Source: Thuidium tamariscinum
Taxonomy: Eukaryota; Streptophyta; Bryopsida; Hypnales; Thuidiaceae
Direction: 5' to 3'
Assembly: GCA_947034885.2 (NCBI GenBank)
Contig: OX344754.2
Location: 5,339,001 to 5,403,000 of the forward strand
DNA length: 64,000 bases
The notes beneath the pieces were generated by a model. The model worked only from the letters and a program-made list of their open reading frames with translations. It did not search any database and was not told where the DNA came from. The translations under genes were made by a program, and so were the position numbers. Of the stretch, positions 48,641 through 64,000 are shown one piece after another; the first letter of the stretch is position 1; each line of letters opens with the position of its first letter.

Positions 48641-50863
48641 GTTACTTTAATTTTGATGTCATTATAGGGGGCGTGGTTGGACAGAATGTCTCACTGAGCT
48701 TCTTTTGGGGGCAAGGCAAGGATGTGGGCAGATTGGAGAAAATTGCATGCCTCTAGACTCTAGAGGGTTGCTCCACAACCTTTGAGGACCCTGCAATCTT
48801 CTTATTTTTTTAGTTAAATTTGATTTTTCCATCAAAGTAAATTAGAATGCAATAGTACACAAGATTTTCAATGAAAAAGTTGAACCAATGATGTGGCTTT
48901 TGTACCTCATATTTCATTTTTGGGACACTTACTCATTTGAGACTCTTAGACAATCCAATGTTGAAGCAAGAGAAGAGAGAAGCCGCTCTTTATTTTAGTG
49001 GGGTAGTGGTGGGTGAAACAAACCATGTGGGATATATGATTATACAAAAAAGAATTCCTCCACTTATAGTTAAGTGGAAATGCAGGAATTGTGATAAAAG
49101 TCAAAATTTAGACGTCATTTAGACATAGTAGACTATATTTTTTCAAAAAACTTCAAACTAAGAAAAGTTGGGAAATCAAGAAAAATTTCATCTCCAAATA
49201 CCTGTTTGACATTTCAATAATCCACCTAAAAGTTATGAACAAGTTCTACAGAAGGTGTTTGAAAATGTCCAAAGAAATGTCTCTTACACCTTCCCTTTGG
49301 AATTTTTCTATAACTCTTACATGAGGCTTCAAAGTCTCAAGCCAATTTTTAGCTTGCTTCTCTCACTTCTTCTAATTCAATTTTTTTTGAAGGAAGCTAT
49401 TATACTATGCCCAAATGAAGTCCAAAATTCAACTTTGAGCACAATTCTTGTGTTTTCAGTTACATCTCGAATTCTTTAGAACTTTAAATCAATATTTCAA
49501 TTTTGTTGAAACAACATGACAAACACAAAGTAGTCATTTAAGTTTGTTTGAACAATTTCACAAGTTACATTGAATCAATGTTGTCAATCAAAAGTATTGT
49601 TTCAACAATTCCAATATGGTGGTATTAGAATATTGAATCAACAATTATTCAAAGGTATTGTTTTAGCATTTTCAATATGGTGTTGTAAAATATTGAATCA
49701 ACAATTATTCATGGTTGAATTCTTTGAAATTATCTTTTAGAAGGATATCTCAAGACTCATCAAACAAGTGGTCACCTTATTGTGTGCATGTAAGTGCTTG
49801 ATCTATTTTAATTGATTAATGCTTTCAAAATGTTTTGATGCTTATTCAAGAATGTTGTCAAATTTAATTTTTTGCAGTAAAATTGCTTTTAACTTTTATG
49901 ACATAGAGCTCTTTGGGGTTTTAATGGAGAAATGACACCCTTTTACAATTCATACTTTTCAATCCATGTTCATGTTCTACATCAAAGCAGCATTGGAATT
50001 TTGAAAATGTTGGTAGATATCTTATACCAATTGTTTAGCCTTCATGTATTGCAAGCACTTGATGATAGATTGATGATGATAAAAGAAACTTCTCAATGTC
50101 CAAAATTCCAATTACTCGAGATTGCAAAAAGATGCTATTTCTCCTTTGAAGCTAATTATACTAGGTTTGAATATTAGGCTTTGATGCAAGTACTTATTTT
50201 TGAATTTACTAGGTTTTTATAAGGATAGTATTGTACATACAGTAAACCATTTTGTTAAGTGGAACATCAAAGCATGTCAGAGCTCTTATCACATAGGAGG
50301 TATCTTACAAGAAATGGAACTTTTTATGAGAAACTATGAAATACATATCAATTTCAAATATTATTATCTATTGATAATATGCTATTAAAATAATTTAATT
50401 TTTTTAATACATTGAATCATTAGGTAAATATGGTAATAATGCACCTAATGGTGAAACAACAACGAAACAAGGGGGGGGGGACAAAAATTATAGGTGTAAC
50501 TATGAACTCTAGAATTCAAATGATGTAAAATTTTACATCACTTGTCCAAATAAAATGAATCCAAGCTTTCTATATAGACAAAAATTTAATGTGTGAGAAA
50601 AAATAAATATAAATAAAAATAAAAATGATGGTTTTTGAAATTCCTTTTCGTTGTCCACTCTCCCTAATTTTGAGAAGAACTTTTGTTTGTAGACATACTT
50701 TGTATTCCAACGACGCTAAATTGTGAGCCTAAAAGCGTGAGCCCAAGAGCTATGAGCGTACATTATGCGAGCCCAGATATTTAGTTGAAGTAAATAGTAA
50801 TTTTTTTCAATATTCCAAAAAAAATTCAATGGACTTCTAATCTAAGGTGACCCGAGTAGTATA
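48641..50863. other. AT-rich intergenic DNA, no gene recognised
   Basis: Short ORFs only. Local TATTGAATCAACAATTATTCA duplication near 49620-49710, and a ten-base G run at about 50471. Confidence 0.5.
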
Positions 50864-50871
50864 CATGTACC

Positions 50872-51409
50872 CAGGGATGATGGGACGTCCGGACGTCCAT
50901 GGGACGTAGACGCTACCCCTCGGACGTCCTGTGACATTTGAAATTTTTTTTGACATACGTCCAGCGGACGGGCGACTGGAGAGCCATGCGGACGGCCTTT
51001 CAATAAGACAGAAGGCGGACGGGTGGTCGGTCGGACTACGGACGGAGCAGCGGACGGGAGGTCGGGGACTGTGGACGGGCGGTCGGAGACTGCGGACGGG
51101 GGGTCGGGGAGTGCGGACGGGGGGTCGGGGACTGCGGATGGGGGGTCGGAGACTGCGGACGGGAGGTCGAGGACTGCGGACGGGCGGTCGGAGACTGCGG
51201 TCGGACTGCGGACGGCACCGTCCGACCGCCTGTCCGCAGTCTCCGACCGCCCGTCCGCAGTTTCCGACCCCCCGTCCGCACGTCTACTTCTGACGGATGC
51301 CGTCCGTTGGTCGCCGAGGACTACGTCCACTGCGTCCGGACGTCTGGACGTCCGGACGTCCGGATTTTGGACGTAATTTTGCCCTGGACGTTGCAATTCG
51401 TCAACCCTG
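50872..51409. mobile_element. 538-bp hAT-type MITE with GC-rich repeat core
   Basis: The element starts CAGGGATGATGGG and ends (inverted) CAGGGTTGACG, with CATGTACC exactly repeated on each side (50864-50871 and 51410-51417), a perfect 8-bp duplication. CAGGG ends plus 8 bp identify hAT. Subterminal GGACGTCC palindromes flank a core of many GGACGGNNGGTCGG units that then turn into their inverted complement, so the core can fold back. The apparent 184-codon and other ORFs inside are by-products of this repeat. Confidence 0.85.
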
Positions 51410-52104: not shown

Positions 52105-55100
52105 TTAGGCCTTTATTTTTATCATTCCTGCTTTCTCTAGTAGTGTCATAATCTCATCCATGCTAAAGCTAGGGGCATGAATGAACTTGTCCTTCTTTGG
52201 GTCAACCTTGCACAAATAACAGAAAATATAATATAAATGTTTGCAGTTAACATACTTCCCTCTCTTGCCGATGGATGCAGACAACATACCAATGAAGTAC
52301 AAGCAAGTGCAAGCTGGGAAATTTGAAATAGTAACACGATATACCATGTGATGAGGTTCTACACCAGACTGTAAAGTGATAATAGCTCCAAGGCCTGGAT
52401 AAGGGAGGATGTTCACTCCAAGGATATTGCCCGTGACATTTCTTGCACTCTTCCATTGATTTTGATGATCATTAGTGGGTGCCTTGTCATTCCTCCGAAT
52501 GTTTTTTCCATTTCGAATACATGGAGGCTTGTCGGAGTGAGCTGCCTTTGAGTAGTTCCATTCCAAAACCTCGAAAAGTCTGGAAGATGTGAACAAGCGA
52601 CGCGGAGAGAGTGATGGGCACTCTTGAAGGCGAAACCCAGCTTCTTGAAAAAGTATAATCTCATGAGAAGTCAGACTTGTACCCAACATCACAGGCCAGA
52701 TTTCAGGGAGTTGAGGGCGACTAAGGACATGAGACCTCCTAGGTCCCATAACGCAACGTTGAATGTCGTCTGGGCAAAACCAGAACTCATCTGTTTCAAC
52801 ATTCATACCTTTGTACTCGCGTTTCTGGCCTTTATACATTGGTGCTGCTACAGCTTTAGAACCTCGAACTATGGACATCTTGCACTTCACCTCCGTCTGC
52901 GCTTGAATGGCATGGCACTTCCTCTTGGACTTTACAGAAATGCGAGCAATGTGCCACTGTGAGGGGTCACAATCCGTCTCCAAAACATGCATGACATGAG
53001 GAAACGCTAGATCTCCTTCATTTGTAGATGCATTCAGAGCAGTGCCAGATTTCAATTGTACTCTAGGGTGAGAGAAATTGACCTTATCTGGGCGGTGAGA
53101 ATCACCTTCAGCCCCAATAGGCTCATCATGCTTGCGCTTTGTGGAGCCAAAGACTTCCTCTCCTTCTAAATGGGGTATACGTGTACACAGTTCTTCCACA
53201 CCAGGCATACTGCACAACGCATCAGTAATCTTCTTCCCGTCCATTGATGCTACTGCTCGCTTTAACTTTAGATCATGTCGGGACGGTCCAGTTCCAGAAG
53301 GTCCACCATTCAAGTACACGCGATAATTAGTCATTTGCATAAATGCTCGAATCCAGTCGTCACAAGTGGCAACATATAAGTCGGTACCACGTTTCCCAGA
53401 TGCTTGAAGCCACTTGTTGTGTATTGTTTCCGATAGGTTGCAGGATGGAATATCCGCTTCTTCGTCTGCTGACAAACTCTGGAAGTACAGTGATAGGATA
53501 TGTTAATAAAAGTGACAAATGAAAATAATATAACAAATCCTCAATAGCCATTTTAAAAAAGGGACAATCATTCACCAAATACCATGAAAGAACTGTCCTG
53601 AGATATCCAAGATACTTTAGACTATTAATACAGAAAGAACCAAATCTGGCTAGGAAATACAAGTGTTTTCATTTAGACCTGTGGTTTAAGTGGGGGCCAA
53701 GGCCGCGACATCAATCAATCACCAGTGGATCACGGGCCCTTTCCATAAGATGAGAGGTTGTATATTGGCTACGAAATGGGAAACCGCAATCCTACAGTGA
53801 AGGCCTCTCGGTGGCGAGATAGGATTCTGAGGACGATCCCAGTTGCAACTGAGGGGTAAGTTCACTAAGTAGGAATAGTTCATATGTGAAAATCTTGAAA
53901 CTAAGGCTGTGATGAAGACAACATGGACTTTGTAAAAGAAGAAATAAAAAAAATGAAAATACTTACTGTCTCCATGAATCCACCCCATTGGCGATAACGG
54001 AAGTGCCAAAAAGCTAACCATAGCTCTAGCTCTCTTAGGGACTCTTCAGAGGCTGCACCGGACGAATACCACCATGCCTTGATTTGAAGATACTTGCTCT
54101 CCGCTTCATCTAGAGTCTTTGCATCTTTGTAATCTCTACAAAGCCTCACGTGTTGCGCTTGCATATCTCTCTTGATGAGTCGCTCCGTGTGTTGTTTCAA
54201 AGAAGTTGCCCAGTGGAAAAGACATGTGCGTTCTCTATCAACCATTTTGATGGATGCATCACCGGACCCATAAACGATCCTAACAGCATTCCAATTTGCT
54301 TGAGCACTATCTGCCATGAAGCCTTTGAAGTTGGGATTGTCCAAGCCATTTTTCTCCATAACTCGATTCAAGCATCTCCACATAATGGCCTGGCCCTCCG
54401 TGTCCTCGGATTGCATGTCGCAAACCGCTATAGTCATCACCTTGCAGTAAATCGAATCATAAACATGGCAAGCGATTGTGGTCCATCCTTTGACACGCTT
54501 AACATGGTCAAACATAAGCCAACAATTTTCTAGATCCCCACCTGCTTGCATACGCTTCACGAGATCGACTCCACTGCCAGGGCCATCCACTAGCATCTTG
54601 AAGAGATAAACTTTCTCTTGTCCTTGTCCGGGAAATACACTGTCGTGAATGAACTCGATCTTGGCCTGCTTCTTCATTGCAAGTAAGTGATCGATCTCAC
54701 CTCCCCCGCTACCATTGCTTCGAAAAGAGGCAATGATGTTCCGAACGTTTGGAGAACTTAAGACCTGGAACTTGTCCATCACTGCATCCAAGGCAGACCC
54801 CTTCAATATTTCTTTCGGAGAATCACCTGAATGAACCAAAAACGTATCCAAGAATTCCTTGCTAGCAGCTAAAGCTATTGCGGAGGATTTAGCTGTAGGA
54901 GTTTTTGCGACCTCCTTTTCTAGAAGGCCAGAAATGGTGTCTACTGAATCTCGACAAAGACCATCTGGAACCGGGTGGTTATGATTGCCTAGGTGAATGC
55001 AAGCCCGGGTCATATGAGATGATCCTACGACATAGTAGATTCTAGCGTCACAGAAACTGACACATGTAGGTGAAGCTTTACAAACTCTACACACTAATGT

Positions 55101-56123
55101 AGAATCTCGTGGTGGTATTGACCCTACGAGAAACGGAGTAGTAGTATTACCCAACCACTCAGTCTCGTTTTTCTTTGAACACCTAGATATGTAATCGCAA
55201 GATGTGTTCGTACAAATAAGGTGACCAGCGCATGAAGACTTCCTAAATTTTAGTCCAAGGTTGTTGTGAATGTTTGAGGTCATCGTGCGACACCACGTAT
55301 GACCATCGTATCGCTTGTCCATGCCAGTCATACTCTTAGAAGAGCTGGACAAGGGTAATGAACGACAAGGTGGCAATTCTAGGACAATATCACCGTCGAA
55401 TGATGTAGGAAGAAAAGGAACTGTCTTACGCTCAATCGAATCAAAATCTATCTGAGCCAGCTCGTTTCTGCACCCTCGAATGTTACGTAGCTTTTTCAGA
55501 GATTCTATAATACTAGAACTACCTTGCTCTTGTGGATACAACGGAGGCCGAGAAAATACTGAACTACCAGCACTACTATCTCGCATACCAACGGATTGAG
55601 ATGTGCCAAGGTGGACAGAAGTCCCAACGGTTTCTGATTTGGACGCAGGGCTGTTATACTTCTTTGGGACTTCCTCTGAATCACTAGACAACTCAACAAC
55701 AGGACAAGAGAAGCTTCCTTCATCATCCTTTGATGAAGGAAGACCGTAATGAAGAGAAGAGGGCGAGAGTCCATTGGGCTCTATCTTGACGGCTTGCAAC
55801 GTAGGAATAGAGGCTGCGTCGGGCACAGACATTGGCGTCAAAACTTCTGTTGAAGAAACCATGACATCTGATGCTAATCCATATGCCCTATAACGACCTG
55901 CACCTAAGCTCCAAAAAGGTCCGTCATCATTTCTAATTCTACGGATAAGAATCGAGTGGATAAGCGTCCCAGATTCAGAAAGTATCTCTTCCTCCACATA
56001 GATAGAAGACTCAACAAAACCATATCGCACATGAAGCAGGTGGCTTGAAACTTCCGCTAGACCAGAGGAGTCAAGACAAAGAAGAAGAGGGACCTCGTGC
56101 CCATTTGCTCTGATTGAGGCCAT
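52105..56123 (-). CDS. Mutator-like (MULE) transposase with SWIM zinc finger
   Basis: Two exons (56123-53967 and 53478-52105) joined in phase 0 give 1176 aa; donor ACA|GTAAGT, acceptor TTCCAG|AGT. Residues about 275-385 form a Cys/His-rich DNA-binding region (C298, C304, C309; CRVC at 345-348; HNHP at 381-384) of the kind preceding MULE catalytic domains. The catalytic candidates are D539 (WLMFDHV), D605 (GFMADSAQANW), the Mutator C-x2-H signature (C634-H637, TCLFHW) and E736 (SCNLSETIHNKW). A SWIM finger (C1109, C1111, C1131, H1133) ends the protein. A SUMO-interaction-like motif VVELSSDSEE lies at 142-151. The enzyme would bind its element ends and cut and paste DNA in the nucleus. The frame is intact, so activity is possible. 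Divergent from the methylase-like gene. Confidence 0.85.
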
Positions 56124-56984
56124 CGCATGAACACAGTACTCGAAAATGAAAAGTGAATGTAGTCTTCTTTGTGATGCACCATGACTTTAAGCAGAGGCAG
56201 TCTTGTTTAGGAGTCATGAAATTGTAGTATTTTTAAAAATAATTCAATTGTAGAACGCCAATGAGGACATCAGGTAAAAATGACATTAAGTGGATCAAAT
56301 TCCCATGAAAATAACATTGATGAGTACTGAAGAACGGAATAATATCATGTTTCGAAATCTTGTTATATTGCGCTTGTCAGTCCAAGATGTGCTTACAGTG
56401 CAATTAATCTTTTTGAGTTTCAATTTTGAGTAGGCAACCTAACTTTTCATAATGAATACAGATACATGTATAGACAGTTTGATTTACCTGGGACAAAATC
56501 ACACCTTGTAAATCCATAGTAAATACAAATGCAGACAAGAATCTGATAATATTTTGCCTCCTAGAATTTCAGAATTACAACATATTAGTAACTGAAATAT
56601 ATATAGTATGATCATAATGGATCGACTAATCCATTGCAAAATGCTCAGAGATTAAGAATCAGAAATCCATAAACAACAGTCCTTTCTTAAAGGAATGACC
56701 AATAAATTCATTTGTGAAATACCATAACAATGGTGACTTTCGAATCTACACCCAAATCCACTTGTAGCGTAAATAAAAGATCAAATGAAATTGGAAGTTC
56801 AAAAATTGAAACCAGAGATACTAACGGACAACGTCAACCTGTAGACATATAAATTCGGATTTCACACTATGGATTAATTCATTGTGGAGATAGAAAGTAA
56901 GCGTTAGAGTAGACATGTATCCATCTATAAGTCACGAGTTATTCAATCTTTGGGTGAATTCAGTTTTTACAGAGACGCCAAATT
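56124..56984. promoter_or_regulatory. Divergent intergenic region between transposase and methylase-like gene
   Basis: This 861-bp AT-rich stretch separates the transposase ATG from the first ORF of the opposite gene. A TATATATAG run at about 56600 is a possible TATA element. Shared, bidirectional promoter use is inferred from layout only. Confidence 0.35.
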
Positions 56985-57278
56985 ATGGTTGAATCCACTC
57001 CCGAATGCAGTAGGAAGTCTATAGGTAAGAAAAGAAAGAGGGGGATGAGTCGATGCTTTAGTAGTTTGAAGTCCTTGAGAATGTCTCGTGAAAATCGACA
57101 CAGACATTTTGAAATTGCTCAGTCATCACCGAATGAGGGAGAAGATATGCATGGGTTGCCGGAAGATACTTATACAGATGGAGTCAATGAGAATGGTGGA
57201 CTACCTTGCCCAAGTATTGACACCAAATTTCTTGCGCACATCCAGGAGAAGAACGTCAACAGAACTAAACAGTGCAAT
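56985..57278 (+). CDS. Possible upstream coding exon of the ParB-methylase gene
   Basis: An open 98-codon segment from ATG 56985, rich in charged residues and with a nuclear-localisation-like KKRKRG, ends at a good donor (TGCAAT|GTAAGA, phase 0). The acceptor GTGTCAG|ATTGTTGGG at 57861 would join it in frame to the six codons before ATG 57880, making a 1228-aa protein. Alternatively it is a separate short transcript and translation begins at 57880, because 57530-57860 also looks like a plant leader. RNA reads would decide. Confidence 0.45.
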
Positions 57279-57467
57279 GTAAGATTCTTTACTCACCAAA
57301 CCCAATGCATGGTATTCCATCTATGCAAGGTCCGTTTCATTCTATTGCACACCGATTGAATTCAATATGTCTTCCAAATTTCCAATTAGATAGGTTTTAT
57401 TTATGTTCAAATCAATTCAAATACTATGATATTCTTCATTAATATTCGAAAATATTTAATTTTATTG

Positions 57468-57520
57468 AAATAAAAAAAATAAAAAAAATAAAAAAAATAA
57501 AAAAAATAAAAAAAATAAAA
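57468..57520 (+). repeat. (TAAAAAAA)n microsatellite
   Basis: About six 8-bp units, within the gap or intron between 57278 and 57862. Confidence 0.9.
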
Positions 57521-57879
57521 ACTGTACCCCGCCAGCCTGAGCCCAGCGGGATCCCGATTAGGGTTTCCTCCACAGAGCTGGCGCGCGCAGGTCCTCGACA
57601 GGCCTCCCTCCCTCCCACCGCGGCGCTGTGCGTGCACCCTCTGGAGAAGCTGTTGCAACCGTCCTCGAGATTTTGAATCACCCTCGCGTGTTCTCATTGT
57701 CCTCTTGGTCTGCATTCTGATTGCATAGACCACTGCATTCCCACAATCAATTTACTTTTCAAAATACTGATTCCTCATTTGTGATTGCATTCCTCCGTTT
57801 TGGATTTCTTTTTACAAGTTTTCTTGTGAATTCTTCTAATGAAACAATCTGGTGGTGTCAGATTGTTGGGGTAGATTCA

Positions 57880-60800
57880 ATGGAGACTCGAAGCGGGGCG
57901 ATTGTGAGGACGGAAGCCACCTCCGTGCGCCACAAAGAGAATGATCCACCTGATCTCGAGGTAGGAAAATGAGGCCTATACTCTTGAATTTTAATCTTGA
58001 TCAAAGTAATTTTTGGTTTGTTTCTTGCATTTGGGGTGGGCAATCACAACCCACCCCCAGTCCGCCGCGCGCCCCCGGGCTCTCTCGCCACCGAGAGCCC
58101 GTCTCAGGGGGACCATGGCAACATTTTTTTTAAAAGAAATTCAGATCCCTGCTCGACGTTTGGGGTGGGCAAGCACACCCCACCCCCAGTCCGCCGCGCG
58201 CCCCCGGGCTCTCTCGCCACCGAGAGCCCGTCACAGGGGGGCTGCGGCAACATTTTTTTTAAAGAAATTCAGATCCCTGATCTTCGAACGGGGTGGGCAA
58301 TCACACCCCACCCCAGATCGCTGCGCGCCCCCGGGCTCTCTCGCCACCGAGAGCCCGTTACAGGGAGGCCGCGGCGACATTTTTTTTCAAAAAAAATCAG
58401 ATCCCTGCTCGACGTTTGGGGTGGGCAAGCACACCCCACCCCCACTCCGCCGCGCGCCCCCGGGCTCTCTCGCCACCGAGAGCTCGTTACAGGGGGGCCG
58501 CGGCAACATTTTTTTTCAAAGAAAATCAGATCCCTGCTCTTCGCGGGGTGGGCAATCACACCCCACCCCAGATCGCTGCGCGCCCCCGGGCTCTCTCGCC
58601 ACCGAGAGCCCGTCACAAGGGGGCCGCGGCGAAATTTTTTTTCAAAAAAAATCAAATCCCTGCTCTTCGCTGGGGTGGGCAATCACACCCCACCCCCAGT
58701 CTGCTGCGCGCCCCCGGGCTCTCTCGCCACCGAGAGCCCATCACGGGGGGCCGCGGCGACATTTTTTTTAAACAAAATCAGATCCCTGCTCTTCGAACGG
58801 GGTGGGCAATCACACCCCACCCCAGATCGCTGCGCGCCCCCGGGCTCTCTCGCCACCGAGAGCCCGTTACAGGGAGGCCGCGGCGACATTTTTTTTCAAA
58901 AAAAATCAGATCCCTGCTCGACGTTTGGGGTGGGCAAGCACACCCCACCCCCACTCTGCCGCGCGCCCCCGGGCTCTCTCGCCACCGAGAGCTCGTTACA
59001 GGGGGGCCGCGGCAACATTTTTTTTCAAAGAAAATCAGATCCCTGCTCTTCGCGGGGTGGGCAATCACACCCCACCCCAGATCGCTGCGCGCCCCCGGGC
59101 TCTCTCGCCACCGAGAGCCCGTCACAAGGGGGCCGCGGCGAAATTTTTTTTCAAAAAAAATCAAATCCCTGCTCTTCGCTGGGGTGGGCAATCACACCCC
59201 ACCCCCAGTCTGCTGCGCGCCCCCGGGCTCTCTCGCCACCGAGAGCCCATCACGGGGGGCCGCGGCGACATTTTTTTTAAACAAAATCAGATCCCTGCTC
59301 TTCGAACGGGGTGGGCAATCACACCCCACCCCAGATTGCCGCACGCCCCGGGTCCGATATTTGAGTTCTGATTTTGCAAAAATCCATCTATGTTCTTACT
59401 GCATGATCAGGTGGATGATACGCGGGTTGCATCCTTATCTCTGTCCTCTACCGACGCGGGAGTAAAAGATACTGAGGACGATAGAGTTCCTGCTCTTTCA
59501 ATACCGAATTCTGAGGCTGGAGTAGGAGATTCTCACGGGCAGGGCGTTCCTTCAAGTTCACTACCGGTCCCCACCCCGGAGGATGAGGACCAAATTCGGA
59601 GATCCCAGAACGTTGATTCAATATCAACAATTGCTAGTATGAGAATTTCTCCTCATCATCTCTCCCGAATGGCAATTCCTTTATGCCGTATGGTCCCCAT
59701 GCCAATGGTTCGGCCCACCTTGGATTGTGATGTGGATGAGTTGGAGACAAAGTATGTTCACGGGTACGAAGATGGAGCAAGAGTATTTTATGTTTCTGTC
59801 TCAAACGAGGAGGGTGAGGTTGGTGTATTTTCTGAAGATGAGAAGCTTCAATGGGGACCGATTTGGAATTCAGTGAATGCTGAATTCAACAAGGAGCTCC
59901 GCAGTCACATTGAGTTGCAGCACTTGGTCGATGCCAAGTTCTACATTTGCGATGGCAACCACAGGTATGCTGCTTGGATGAGGCATATCAAAAGGCTTCA
60001 CGGTGGAGAAGCTAAGTGGCACGTTCGAGTGGACTCAATCGTCTTGGACACGAAGGATAGGCTTGGGACAGCAATGCAAGTCATGCACGATGTGAACAAG
60101 TGAGTTCTCTTATCTAATTACCAACTGTTTGTATGGAGATATCTTTTGACCTTGTGGAATGCTTATAGTGTGTTTGTTTGTGAAGGCACACGGAGAATTC
60201 ATTTGTGAAGACAAACCTTGTCCACACACTCTATCGTGTTCGTAAGTATGGAACCATGTCCATTGAGAAGTTTGCGGAGCTCTTGAGCCCAGAGGAAGTT
60301 AGACTTTGCGGCGGCCACGCCCAAAGGAAGACTTGGTACACGATGCCCCTGGATGTATTCACCACATTCATTTTTCAGGTTTGACAATGTAAACTTTGTC
60401 TTATTGGTATGTAAGTCAGTTTCGAAGGACATTTTGTTTTATTTGTTGATTTTGTCATAACATTCGAATTGCTCATGAACTCTTTCTTGTTTTGGCAGCA
60501 AGAAATATCTCTTGCATCAGATGCTGCAGTTCGCAAGTATCGAGAGGAGACTGCCCCAAAAGATGTATGTAGTGCTGGTATTACAAATGCTATGAGAAGT
60601 GCTACCAAGGATGCCACAGACAAGCTTTATAAAAAGCTTTCTAAGATTGTGTCCGTTGCTAATCCAGCATTGGGAGATGACTGGTTGAAAGAGGTGCGTC
60701 ATTATAGCTTTACAATTCTTGTCATCATTTTTGCTACCTTATGTTCAATTCTACTCTCTTATGTGTTGTTTTATACTTGCAGATTGAGAGGCACTGGAGT

Positions 60801-63800
60801 TTGTATAGTGTCCAGGAGTTGACGCTTGACAAGCTTCAACTTATTGCTACTGCCAATGCTAGCCCACAACACAAAGTGAAGTGGCTGAAGTGGATAAACT
60901 CATCCGCTCCTACTCGTGCAGCTCGTCGAGTTCCACCCCGACCAGCTAATGACGATAAGATTGGATCTTTCTTATCGAAGGCGGTATGGTTTGCAGGGGT
61001 AAATATGGATGTGCATTTCATTTATTTTGCTTTTATTTAAGACGCTTCGTAAGGATGATTTTTCTAGATGTGCTGATATGATTCCCATTTGTGTGTAGTT
61101 GGAGGATGCAGCTCTTGAGTTGTATGACACCATCCTCAAGTCTGACAACATCCAAGTTAACATGGACGTGCCCGCTGAGCCAATGTCTCTTTCTGACTAC
61201 ATCGAGTCTTGGAGGATGAAGTTGTGGGAGCACTTATATCCCGGAGTTTTCAAAGGTGCTGAGGCATTCAAGAAATCTGAGTCCTTTAAAGACTATAAGG
61301 GCTCCCTTCTTGCCGTGAGACGGGTCTTATACAGGTAGTTCTTTCACTTCATTTTGATTTTCACCTTTGGTTATTTACCTTAGTTCTTAGGAGGAATTTG
61401 GAATGTCGGCAATGACTTTGGAATGTAATGTTCATATTGCCATAACTCATGATCACAGAAGCATCAGTTTTTTATTGCTTCCATCACGTTTTCTCATTGA
61501 TGTCTCATTTTTTTTTACCTAACCAAGATTTAGTATGAGCACAATATGGTTGTTCATTTCATGATTTGTATTTTTCTTTGGTATTCACTTATGTTGTGTT
61601 TTACTTCTTCAGATACTTTACATTTGAATTATATGGGAAGCAAGCTATCTCCAAGTCAGATTTGCCCCCATTCTTACGCACGTGGCGTGACTCGACATCA
61701 TCTGATTGTATGTTTTCACCCACTCAATTGAAGTTTTGGCCAGTTGGCCATCTTCAACTTGGTGCGTGGTACTTGGATTGTAGCAAGGGATTTACAGCAC
61801 CTGAAGAAGTGGCGCTCTTCCAAAGTATCAAGGATTCTGTTGTTGTGGTGTCGGAGGTTGATGAGTTCTCTGGATTGGAAGGTGAGGCTCGTGACAAGGC
61901 CATCAAGAAGCGGGAGTTGGAGAATAAGAAGAAAGAGGAGCAGTGGGAGGCGGCCAAGAAGAAGCTAGAAGACACCGAGGTGCGAAGGAGAGAGAAATTG
62001 TCTGAGAAAGCGAAGAGCGACACAAAGGAGAAGAGGAAGGGGAAGAAACGCAAGGCAGAGGCTACTCCTGTGGAGCATGCGACAAGTGATGGGGCCGCTA
62101 ATCCCACTTCCTCGGGCTTCTCGCTTACAAAATCTCAGATGAAACAGGGCAATTTGACTTTGGCTCCGGTTGTGGTTGTGGATGCCAATGTGGATGAATG
62201 CATTCTCAATGAATCTCTCACCAATTTGCTTGGTTCAGATGATGGCCCTATCCCCGATTCTTTCACGATGGTTCTCTCCCTTCTGGAAAAGGTAATTCTC
62301 TATGTAGTCAATGCTTTGAACTATGAACATGTTGTTTCTTTATAGTATAAGGGTGAGTGTGGAAAAATTATTTGTGTTGGTCTTGAACTTGTATGAATTT
62401 ATTAATAAAAATTTCCCTTGTTTTCTCTTATCTGCAGCATGCTTTGGACAAGGATCGTTTCTTCGATGGTGTTGTTACTAAGCAGGCCTTAGTTGATCTC
62501 ATTGTAGTAGATGTTCCTGAGGGCTTACCTGTCCCTAACATCTCTATTCCGCCATCCTCTGTTCCAATTTGGAATAGATTTTCAGAAGAGTGGCTACAGA
62601 CGATCTTTGATTTCGCAGAGAACTACCTCCATGATGGTGGTGGCCTTGTTCTCATGTACTCTCTAAGTCGTGAGATTCGATCTTATATTTTGGATTTCTC
62701 TCAGAAGTATGGATTTACATCGAAAATGGAGTGGATGGTGTGGAACAGACTACGTCTTACCAATCCACTAGACCGTTCTTCCACGGTATGTTCTTCTGGT
62801 CTTTTCAGATAGATTTTTTTTTCTTTTCCTCTTGAAAATGTTACATTGATTCTAATGTACTGGATTGGATTTGCAGACTGTGCGCTTCAAAATGAACTTG
62901 TATATGAAGTCTGAGAAGTCCCGCTTTACATTTCATGATGTTCCAGCGCACCAGGCTATCGACCTTGACATTGGCAGAGATGATCTTGTTCTAAATTGTT
63001 GTGAGAAGGAGGATTTGGCAATGAATGGTACAATTCCATGGCGTGGTTCTCGTGAAAAGGCACGATCATTCATGCAAATGATCATTGAGGGAACTACCTC
63101 GCCTGGTGACATCATCATGGATTGCACAGCCTCTACAGGTTTCATTCTTTACTGTATATCACTTGATTTAGTGTTTTAACACATGTCTTTGGGATTTGAA
63201 CTTTTAACTTCATGTCTCATTTCTTTTAATGTGTTTGGGCTTTTGCAGGAGCAAGCATCTACGCTTGTCGAGCTACTGGCCGCCACATTGTAGCGTTGGA
63301 GGAGGATAAGAGCATTTTTGATGCAGTTTTAGCTCCACTCATATGCCCCATTTCAGCTCCAGAGCCAACTCCACAAAGCTCTACACCTATCCCAATTGCT
63401 GACGATGAGGACGTGGTACCAATTCGTCAGTTGCAGAAGACTTCGCGCTTCAGTAAGTAAGTTCTTTTTTTTTCAATACTTTGAGAATGTGAGTTTCCAA
63501 TGTTTTGTATCTGACATTTGGTGTCATGATTTTGTAGGCAGGCAGCCGAAATGAAGATGCAGTCATCCCGACCATTCTTTGCTAAACCGACGTTTTTCCC
63601 TAGCCCTCCTAAACCTTTTTTGTTACCCGTGTATGTTGAGGCAGTAGCCACGCATTCTCAGACCATAGATTCTCAACCATCTTTTAGATCTCGTAGAACG
63701 GATCCACGAGTATCATTGTTTGTAGATGAGTTTGCTATAGAGTCAGATAGTGAGCTATCAATGAGTGGTGAGAGCTCTACATCAGGGTCTTCTAGTAGTA

Positions 63801-63805
63801 CCTAG
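57880..63805 (+). CDS. ParB-like domain fused to degenerate beta-class DNA methyltransferase
   Basis: Eleven exons with GT-AG introns keep one frame (1124 aa): 57880-57960, 59411-60099, 60186-60378, 60499-60693, 60783-60998, 61099-61334, 61613-62291, 62438-62785, 62877-63138, 63249-63456, 63538-63805. Residues about 90-260 contain a ParB/sulfiredoxin-like fold with DGNHRYAAW (208-216). Residues about 630-680 are a charged coiled coil followed by a nuclear signal (KGKKRKAE). Residues about 764-1000 follow the N4/N6 beta-class order: motif IV first (DVPE, 788-791, where (D/N/S)PP(Y/F/W) is usual), then motif X (IPWRGSREKARSFMQMII, 932-949), motif I (DCTASTGAS, 961-969, where DPFxGxGT is usual) and motif II (GRHIVALEED). 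The tail is Ser/acidic. Fold is clear, but catalysis is doubtful with both key motifs changed. ParB-methylase fusions are typical of phages and mobile elements. Confidence 0.85.
58033..59352 (+). repeat. CpG-rich 127-129-bp tandem array inside intron 1
   Basis: Eleven units begin with GGGGTGGGCAA at 58033, 58162, 58290, 58418, 58545, 58672, 58799, 58927, 59054, 59181 and 59308; the last is cut short. Units come in variants (ATCACACC or GCACACC; AACG, TTTG, CGC or CTG before the start), and the four-unit block 58290-58798 is repeated almost exactly at 58799-59307, a 509-bp higher-order repeat. Each unit holds a perfect stem GGGCTCTC...GAGAGCCC with an 8-nt loop, a GGGGTG...CACCCC stem and an A/T run. 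The array occupies most of the 1450-bp first intron (57961-59410). Long ORFs on both strands exist only because the units lack stops. Confidence 0.9.
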
Positions 63806-64000
63806 ACATCCCTAGACTCTTTGATTTTGAACCCACTATACTCGTATATGATATTTTGTGTTGGTATCTACTTGCTTCTATCAGCCATCATTGTATTGAA
63901 TGTATATCCGCTATTTTCTTACTTCTAAACCCTTTCTATGCCCTTTGTTGGACTTTGGTGTTATAAATTCATTTGTTTCCTATTTGTAAACCACCCTAAA
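63806..64000 (+). other. 3' region of the ParB-methylase gene
   Basis: AT-rich downstream sequence that should contain the 3' UTR. The window ends in CCACCCTAAA, whose complement TTTAGGGTG also occurs at 51431, a possible but unproven hint of element ends. Confidence 0.5.

Follow-up and report, generated by a model that had tools for sequence, protein, structure and literature searches.

A transposon of the moss Thuidium tamariscinum with divergent transposase and ParB-methylase genes and a candidate landing-site array in an intron

In a stretch of 64,000 nucleotides from the moss Thuidium tamariscinum (assembly GCA_947034885.2, contig OX344754.2; C6:5339001-5403000 in our numbering of the contigs; hereinafter the window, its first base being position 1), a transposase gene and a gene that joins a ParB-like domain to a methyltransferase-like domain (the ParB-methylase gene) lie head to head. 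Do the two genes belong to one element and, if so, what does the second one do there? An earlier note on this DNA held that the transposase's element carries the ParB-methylase gene as cargo and that the product of this gene modifies or protects the DNA or chromatin of that element. Searches of the genome (363 Mb; 19 contigs, of which eleven are large) show that both genes form one mobile, autonomous-looking DNA transposon: the proposal of cargo is borne out by common ends, target duplications, repeated copies and the head-to-head pairing. With respect to function, the comparisons described below suggest a protein that may recognise its own element.

One mobile element with two divergent genes

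The gene models, which were built from sequence, agree with the earlier note in an intact transposase gene of two exons placed head to head with an intact ParB-methylase gene of 11 exons. The whole element (locus L009) is 13,415 bp long and occupies positions 50708..64122, so that its right end (C6:5403122) lies 122 bases past the window edge at 64000. It is flanked by a 10-bp target-site duplication, CTTTGTATTC, the left copy of which is found at 50698..50707 and the right copy directly after 64122; duplications of 9-10 bp are present in all four elements for which both ends were established (10 bp in the window copy, 9 bp in the three others). The terminal inverted repeats, identified by comparison of the two ends (the left one at 50708..50752, plus strand), are short, about 43-45 bp, and imperfect, with 32 of the 45 end positions matching, 17 of these in one run. 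Of the two signatures for which the earlier note proposed to look, long terminal repeats and a duplication of 9-10 bp, the duplication was found, and the repeats in this short and imperfect form, from a left end at 50708.

The window copy was compared with 19 others (L010-L028), and the right sides of four copies were included. The left end at 50708 is common to 18 of the 19, the remaining copy, L014, having no left end and beginning inside the transposase. A right end equivalent to 64122 is present in three of the four copies with a right side; in the fourth (L031), the sequence stops within the gene. Homology runs from the transposase through the intergenic region into the repeat array in intron 1 of the ParB-methylase gene in all 19 copies, in two pieces in the case of L027. 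Of the 19 copy stretches, nine extend past 59411, each of them running on in ParB exon 2, whereas ten stop in the array or, in the case of L022, meet other sequence there before the ParB gene resumes. Element ends lying between the two genes, the arrangement that would have separated them, occur in none of the copies fetched. The possibility that a host gene merely adjoins a transposon is ruled out by the common ends together with the repeated copies. Furthermore, in the 91% subfamily, five copies located on C1 and C6 share 97.8-99.2% identity with one another over about 8 kb (10 pairs), which implies fairly recent movement. A segment of about 537 bp rich in 21-bp tandem repeats (50873..51409), with a 9-bp duplication, CATGTACCC, on its flanks, is missing from all 18 other copies that have the left end; it looks like a later insertion outside the ancestral element and resembles a separate non-autonomous insertion.

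The pairing is old and extends well beyond close copies. A search with the transposase exon yielded 1049 candidates, 60 of them scored; the best matches other than the window itself are 98% identical and located on other chromosomes. When these best 60 of 1049 matches were set against 90 of the 150 methylase matches listed, a listed methylase exon was found upstream of 53, divergently oriented in 53 of 53 cases. Six of the seven unpaired matches belong to the 60-62% family, in which a search with the gene of L033 placed a diverged ParB exon divergently upstream in all six (by eye), at 2.7 kb in five and at 6.2 kb in the sixth; transposase families that lack a ParB gene are thereby ruled out for these six apparent exceptions. 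L033 itself, a member of this family, contains a decayed ParB-methylase gene, about 33% identical, in the same head-to-head arrangement. The seventh match, C3:9045696, has the 16-mer of the array upstream and no ParB or methylase exon among the matches listed. Altogether, the ParB-methylase gene is head to head with 59 of the 60 best transposase matches (53 plus 6), and the same divergent gene pair thus recurs at other genomic loci, as the earlier note had envisaged.

In the more distant 54% family (L036 and L034), a 54%-identical transposase lies head to head with a 47%-identical ParB exon. For this family, the best 150 of 557 and of 568 candidates were taken, and about 100 matches of each were used. 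A listed ParB or methylase exon is present within 15 kb upstream of at least 40 of the 60 transposases, divergent in 40 of 40, and within 15 kb downstream of at least one of the 60. As these counts cover the matches listed, the gene is truly absent from at most the 20 of the 60 transposases that are unpaired here. With regard to chromosomal distribution, contig C11 (17.5 Mb) accounts for 4.8% of the genome, yet of the 150 methylase-exon matches listed it carries 34 (by eye); possibly this contig is an atypical chromosome, for example a sex chromosome.

Palindromes in the first intron and their candidate binder

The first intron of the ParB-methylase gene, between exon 1 (57880..57960, plus strand, 27 codons) and exon 2, contains an array of about 10.2 units of about 127 bp (58033..59352). 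Each unit carries one exact 16-bp palindrome CTCTCGCCACCGAGAG, ten in all, and the array also includes ten palindromes of the form GGGTGGGCA-N-N-CACACCCCACCC. The CTCTCGCCACCGAGAG core is identical in the unit consensuses of five subfamily groups, although the rest of the unit diverges widely; a second block, GGGGTGGGCA[AG]TCACACCCCA, is identical in the five consensuses but for one position. The 19 other copies (L010-L028, with L032) contain 138 exact cores, 36 with one mismatch and 6 with two; 16 of the 36 single changes are CpG transitions, and 12 change the first base to A. Genome-wide, the exact CTCTCGCCACCGAGAG occurs at 319 places and its reversed control at none. Of these 319 places, 100 were listed; they make up 15 clusters, and every cluster has a transposase or methylase exon of this family no more than about 8 kb away (by eye).

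A related motif is found in the older 59-60% family (L035): seven of its places differ from the window core at no more than 3 positions and eleven at no more than 4, compared with no place within 3 mismatches in any of 20 shuffles that kept base composition only. Nine of these sites, at positions 3006-4047 of L035, are CTCTCGGCGCCGAGAG-like and lie upstream of ParB exon 2, 75-277 bp apart, with flanks that seem unrelated (by eye); Tandem Repeats Finder detected no tandem array in L035, and the sites were recovered by motif search only. The perfect palindrome CTCTCGGCGCCGAGAG occurs at 11 genomic places, all 11 in or beside L035-type elements (by eye). The variant that ends in GGG, CTCTCGGCGCCGAGGG, is found outside recognised elements as single occurrences, at about 51 places, a few of them near other ParB exons and most of them unexplained. 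In the 54% family, there is a different palindrome, CCCGCG-CCAC-CGCGGG, with one perfect and two one-off copies, and the 60-62% family has AGCCGTTAACGGCT and variants of it within a 104-bp repeat. Comparison with local shuffles gave a clear excess of gapped palindromes, with 20 versus a mean of 1.4 (spacer 4) and 21 versus 1.1 (spacer 8) in the window, 10 versus 1.2 in L024 and 7 versus 1.1 (spacer 0) in L035; in L034, the excess is moderate (9 versus 2.2, maximum 6).

For comparison, bacterial ParB binds palindromic parS sites and spreads with cytidine triphosphate, and the VANDAL elements, in which VANC proteins are found, are of the Mutator type. We read the palindromes of the moss element as parS-like or VANC-like candidate landing sites of its own ParB-like protein, which would mark or shield the element, the methyltransferase half being a non-writing one; we assign this reading, which is built on sequence comparison, a probability of about 0.5. 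We predict that the palindromes are bound by a protein, most likely the ParB-like protein of the element itself, which would load on them as a dimer and perhaps then spread in a manner dependent on nucleoside triphosphate, as in the bacterial ParB-parS system. Once loaded, the protein would mark its element and either shield it from host silencing or help assemble the ends, by analogy with VANC proteins, which work via repeats in their own introns. The palindrome cluster, together with the lost catalytic motif described below, shifts the likely mechanism from methyl writing to sequence-specific self-recognition. A ParB-like domain and clustered 16-bp palindromes, here putative sites, are shared with ParB-parS; the moss case differs in being a eukaryotic transposon, in which no ParA was seen and none was searched for. 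More tentatively, and rather against the odds, this transposon superfamily might possess a ParB-parS-like system of its own, in which a ParB-like clamp, with a methyltransferase fold that has lost standard catalysis, coats the element from palindromes in its own gene, the protein of each family having changed in step with its palindrome. Arms that change while their symmetry is retained would be in keeping with a binder that acts as a dimer and alters together with its site.

Several observations weigh against the reading of the palindromes as landing sites. The variant CTCTCGGCGCCGAGGG is present at 77 places, 26 in elements and 51 elsewhere (by eye). No place within 3 mismatches of the window core was found in the 54% and 60-62% families (L034, L036 and L033), the palindromes of these two families were picked after the fact, and those of L033 are scarcely above shuffles (3 versus 0.8-1.0, maximum 3, at the two best settings). 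Instead of this protein, the transposase or a host factor could be what binds there. The N-terminal half of the protein has weak Pfam matches to DUF1015 (E 0.005) and DndB (E 0.018), neither of which passes the cut-off, and a four-sequence ParB profile run against PDB found no ParB, giving chance-level matches only. Finally, in seven young copies (L010-L015 and the window), private C-to-T or G-to-A changes amount to 0.132 per site in the CG context and 0.133 in CHG, compared with 0.032 in CHH and 0.007 for A/T transitions, so that CG/CHG decay is about 18 times the A/T transition rate. Such decay is the mark expected from host cytosine methylation after insertion; the host therefore methylates inserted copies, and any protection would be incomplete or brief. 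Accordingly, lasting protection from host methylation was downgraded as a function of the protein.

Alternatively, the array might serve as a promoter, enhancer or insulator to which a host factor binds, or form a hairpin in the intron RNA, with the protein having an unrelated role, such as transposition or repair. The position of the array inside an intron and near the likely divergent promoter region would fit this explanation, and, as RNA, a spaced palindrome could form a hairpin whose loop would have 4 bases; set against this, the exact 16-mer is clustered in elements, in the 15 clusters described above, and the 59-60% family retains a spacerless 16 bp, which would be better suited to a dimer site on DNA than to a hairpin. 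We consider this alternative somewhat improbable.

The transposase and the two-domain protein

The transposase model runs on the minus strand from 56123 to 52105, with two exons and 1176 amino acids. Exon 1 (53967..56123) encodes a zinc-finger-like region, the first two acidic catalytic candidates and C-x-x-H, and exon 2 (52105..53478) the third catalytic candidate (NLSETIHN) and a SWIM-like C-x-C ... C-x-H stretch (all by eye); for the intron, 36 combinations preserve the frame, and the one with GTAAGT and CTTCCAG at its borders was picked. A DDE triad with C-x-x-H and a SWIM finger make up the motif list of Mutator-like transposases. This transposase, with DDE-like motifs and Mutator-like by the 9-10-bp duplications, is the likely mover of the element.

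The Mutator-like label, which the earlier note had applied, finds partial agreement: the length of the target duplications and the motifs identified by eye point to it, without a profile match. The Pfam profile of Mutator-like elements (MULE, PF10551) does not match the transposase even at E 10, searches of Pfam and NCBIfam returned nothing useful, a PDB search with the transposase core gave chance-level matches only, and hhalign against a local MULE of the same genome yielded no significant profile match. It is somewhat improbable, in our estimate, that the transposase comes from a DDE superfamily other than Mutator. The silence of the MULE profile would favour such an origin, the more so as this profile matches 33 other places in the genome, none of them among the 60 best transposase matches, as would the hhalign result. 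The methylase exon nearest to any of these 33 places is 60 kb off, among 122 of the 150 listed methylase matches, which include every listed one on contigs with MULE-profile places. On the other side stand the 9-10-bp target duplications, which contrast with the 4-bp duplications of Sola elements, and the order D..D..CxxH..E, which is in register with a canonical MULE of the same genome and is followed by a SWIM-like tail (by eye).

The ParB-methylase model runs on the plus strand from 57880 to 63805, with 11 exons and 1119 amino acids; it has one terminal stop and no internal stops, and all introns are GT-AG. The ParB-like domain with its GNHR motif is encoded in exon 2 (59411..60099), which is followed by exons 3 (60186..60378), 4 (60499..60693), 5 (60783..60983) and 6 (61099..61334) and by exon 7 (61613..62291), a charged linker. 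The methyltransferase-like domain occupies exon 8 (62438..62785), exon 9 (62877..63138) and exon 10 (63249..63456), where it ends; exon 11 (63538..63805) encodes the C-terminal tail and the stop. Motifs were compared among five sequences, those of the window, the 91% subfamily and the 59-60%, 54% and 60-62% families. The GNHR motif of the N-terminal half is invariant in all five, and this motif and a published relative weakly suggest kinship with ParB, without a significant profile match; a scan of viral contigs with the ParB profile gave 39 pattern matches and no confirmed relatives.

The C-terminal half matches the sequences of the solved structures 5hfj (deposited as DpnA, E 5e-6), which we take to be the M1.HpyAVI enzyme, and 6pbd (CcrM, E 3e-5), and the Pfam match of the window protein to N6_N4_Mtase (E 0.005) is below the cut-off. 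In the alignment with 5hfj, DVPE of exon 8 stands opposite the catalytic DPPY, and DCTASTG of exon 9 opposite DPFMGSG, an instance of DPFxGSG. Active N6/N4 DNA methylases have [DNS]PP[YFW] as catalytic motif IV. DPPY is present in none of the five sequences, being replaced by DVPE in the window and the 91% subfamily and by DMPK, DCPE and KYPD in the three other families. With DPPY gone, the methyltransferase half probably no longer writes N6-methyladenine (m6A) or N4-methylcytosine (m4C) in the standard way; to judge from these motifs, it is more likely to be a structural module, or one that senses S-adenosylmethionine or binds DNA. An ordinary methylase role was accordingly downgraded, and ordinary DNA methylation by this protein is doubtful.

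It is rather unlikely, then, that the protein is a working methylase with altered motifs, the ParB half of which binds the element while m6A or m4C protects or marks it. The matches to CcrM and M1.HpyAVI would be in keeping with such activity, and TASTG and LPV (in the form P-x-x-LPV) are retained in all five sequences, so that the domain is not randomly decayed; the authors of the Ectocarpus study discussed below predicted m4C or m6A for their relative (PMC12477816, in the portion of the text consulted). Against it stand the replacement of DPPY, the weaker constraint on the second half of the protein (ratio of nonsynonymous to synonymous substitution rates, dN/dS, 0.25 versus 0.07 in the first half) and the genome, in which no N6_N4_Mtase match over the Pfam cut-off was found in an exon-by-exon search that could miss split domains; such matches are present in 9 of 14 control genomes. 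The claim that the protein modifies the DNA of the element is thus supported neither by the catalytic motif nor by the genome-wide search.

The ParB-methylase gene is kept by purifying selection about as strictly as the transposase. Between the window and the 91% subfamily (L024 and L032), dN/dS is 0.122 for the former (dS 0.34, 1041 codons) and 0.127 for the latter (dS 0.26, 1176 codons); within the ParB-methylase, it is 0.069 for the first half, which includes the ParB-like domain, and 0.247 for the second. In near-identical copies, the values are 0.39-0.44 (L010) and 1.15-1.21 (L013), each of these two copies having in-frame stops in its two genes; L022 has 0.37 (partial gene) and 0.29. A chance-captured passenger that hitchhikes without helping the element is rejected as very improbable, although gene capture is common in Mutator-like elements, on the strength of this selection, equal to that on the transposase, and of a pairing that persists down to 54% transposase identity.

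A third coding segment of about 47 codons (56985..57125, plus strand) has dN/dS 0.17 against the 91% subfamily (L024) and, against the closer copy L016, 3 amino-acid and 0 silent changes. It seems conserved at the protein level and possibly belongs to the ParB gene as an additional 5' exon or represents a small gene of its own. The segment codes for a basic stretch containing KKRKR, and its ATG is not conserved.

Relation to known systems and meaning

Transposon ParB-methylase proteins are already known as a kind, so that the present one is not wholly new. The text of PMC12477816 (2025), in the part available to us, describes the brown-algal (Ectocarpus) transposon Sola1-1_Ec32, which carries a ParB-like and DNA methyltransferase gene, and cites ParB-methylases of green and red algal transposons (Iyer 2011; Petroll 2025), reported there as similar transposon proteins. 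As in the moss element, the Sola1-1_Ec32 protein, of about 1100 amino acids, is ParB-like and methyltransferase-like and is encoded on the strand opposite to the transposase. The moss element differs in the size of its target duplications, as noted above, in the absence of DPPY, in the palindrome cluster in an intron of the gene and in its land-plant host. The genome has 22 matches over the cut-off to the domain of LOB, a family of land plants and streptophytes, and so low a count is in keeping with a moss. ParB-methylase fusions also exist in bacteria: the portion of PMC5512222 consulted describes a protein of Bacillus cereus in which a ParB domain is fused to a methylase, described as an adenine methylase, and which has nicking activity. 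Cytosine methyltransferases of algal retrotransposons are the subject of PMC5890265, as far as the extract of it goes, and ParB is not mentioned in the extracts of PMC12730594 or PMC9033089.

A functional parallel may be offered by the VANDAL elements of Arabidopsis with their VANC proteins, for which the consulted portion of PMC5735166 reports that the target motifs of VANC are located in tandem repeats, including introns of VANC21 and VANB21, and that the motif evolves with the accessory genes. Common to both are a multi-gene element, an accessory protein and a short motif amplified in intron repeats of the accessory gene; the moss accessory protein differs in its ParB-like domain and methyltransferase fold, and its intron motif is only a candidate target. 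Among open-licence PubMed Central papers, judged by title and the start of the abstract, no Mutator-like or land-plant case was recognised. The earlier note knew of no described Mutator-like element with such a gene, and none was recognised within these papers; the kind of gene was already known, from Sola1 (PMC12477816). What is new is the Mutator-like carrier, the methyltransferase-like domain without DPPY and the array of 16-bp palindromes in the first intron of the ParB gene.

Transposons with epigenetic tools are few, and each is informative. One caution that follows from this family is that DNA methylation should not be assumed for transposon ParB-methylases. The family unites a bacterial-style DNA-recognition protein and its apparent target site in one element, at several family ages within one genome. 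If the predicted binding is true, these elements would represent a counterpart of VANC built on a seemingly unrelated protein and would provide matched pairs of protein and site, a series formed naturally, in which the self-recognition of selfish elements could be studied.

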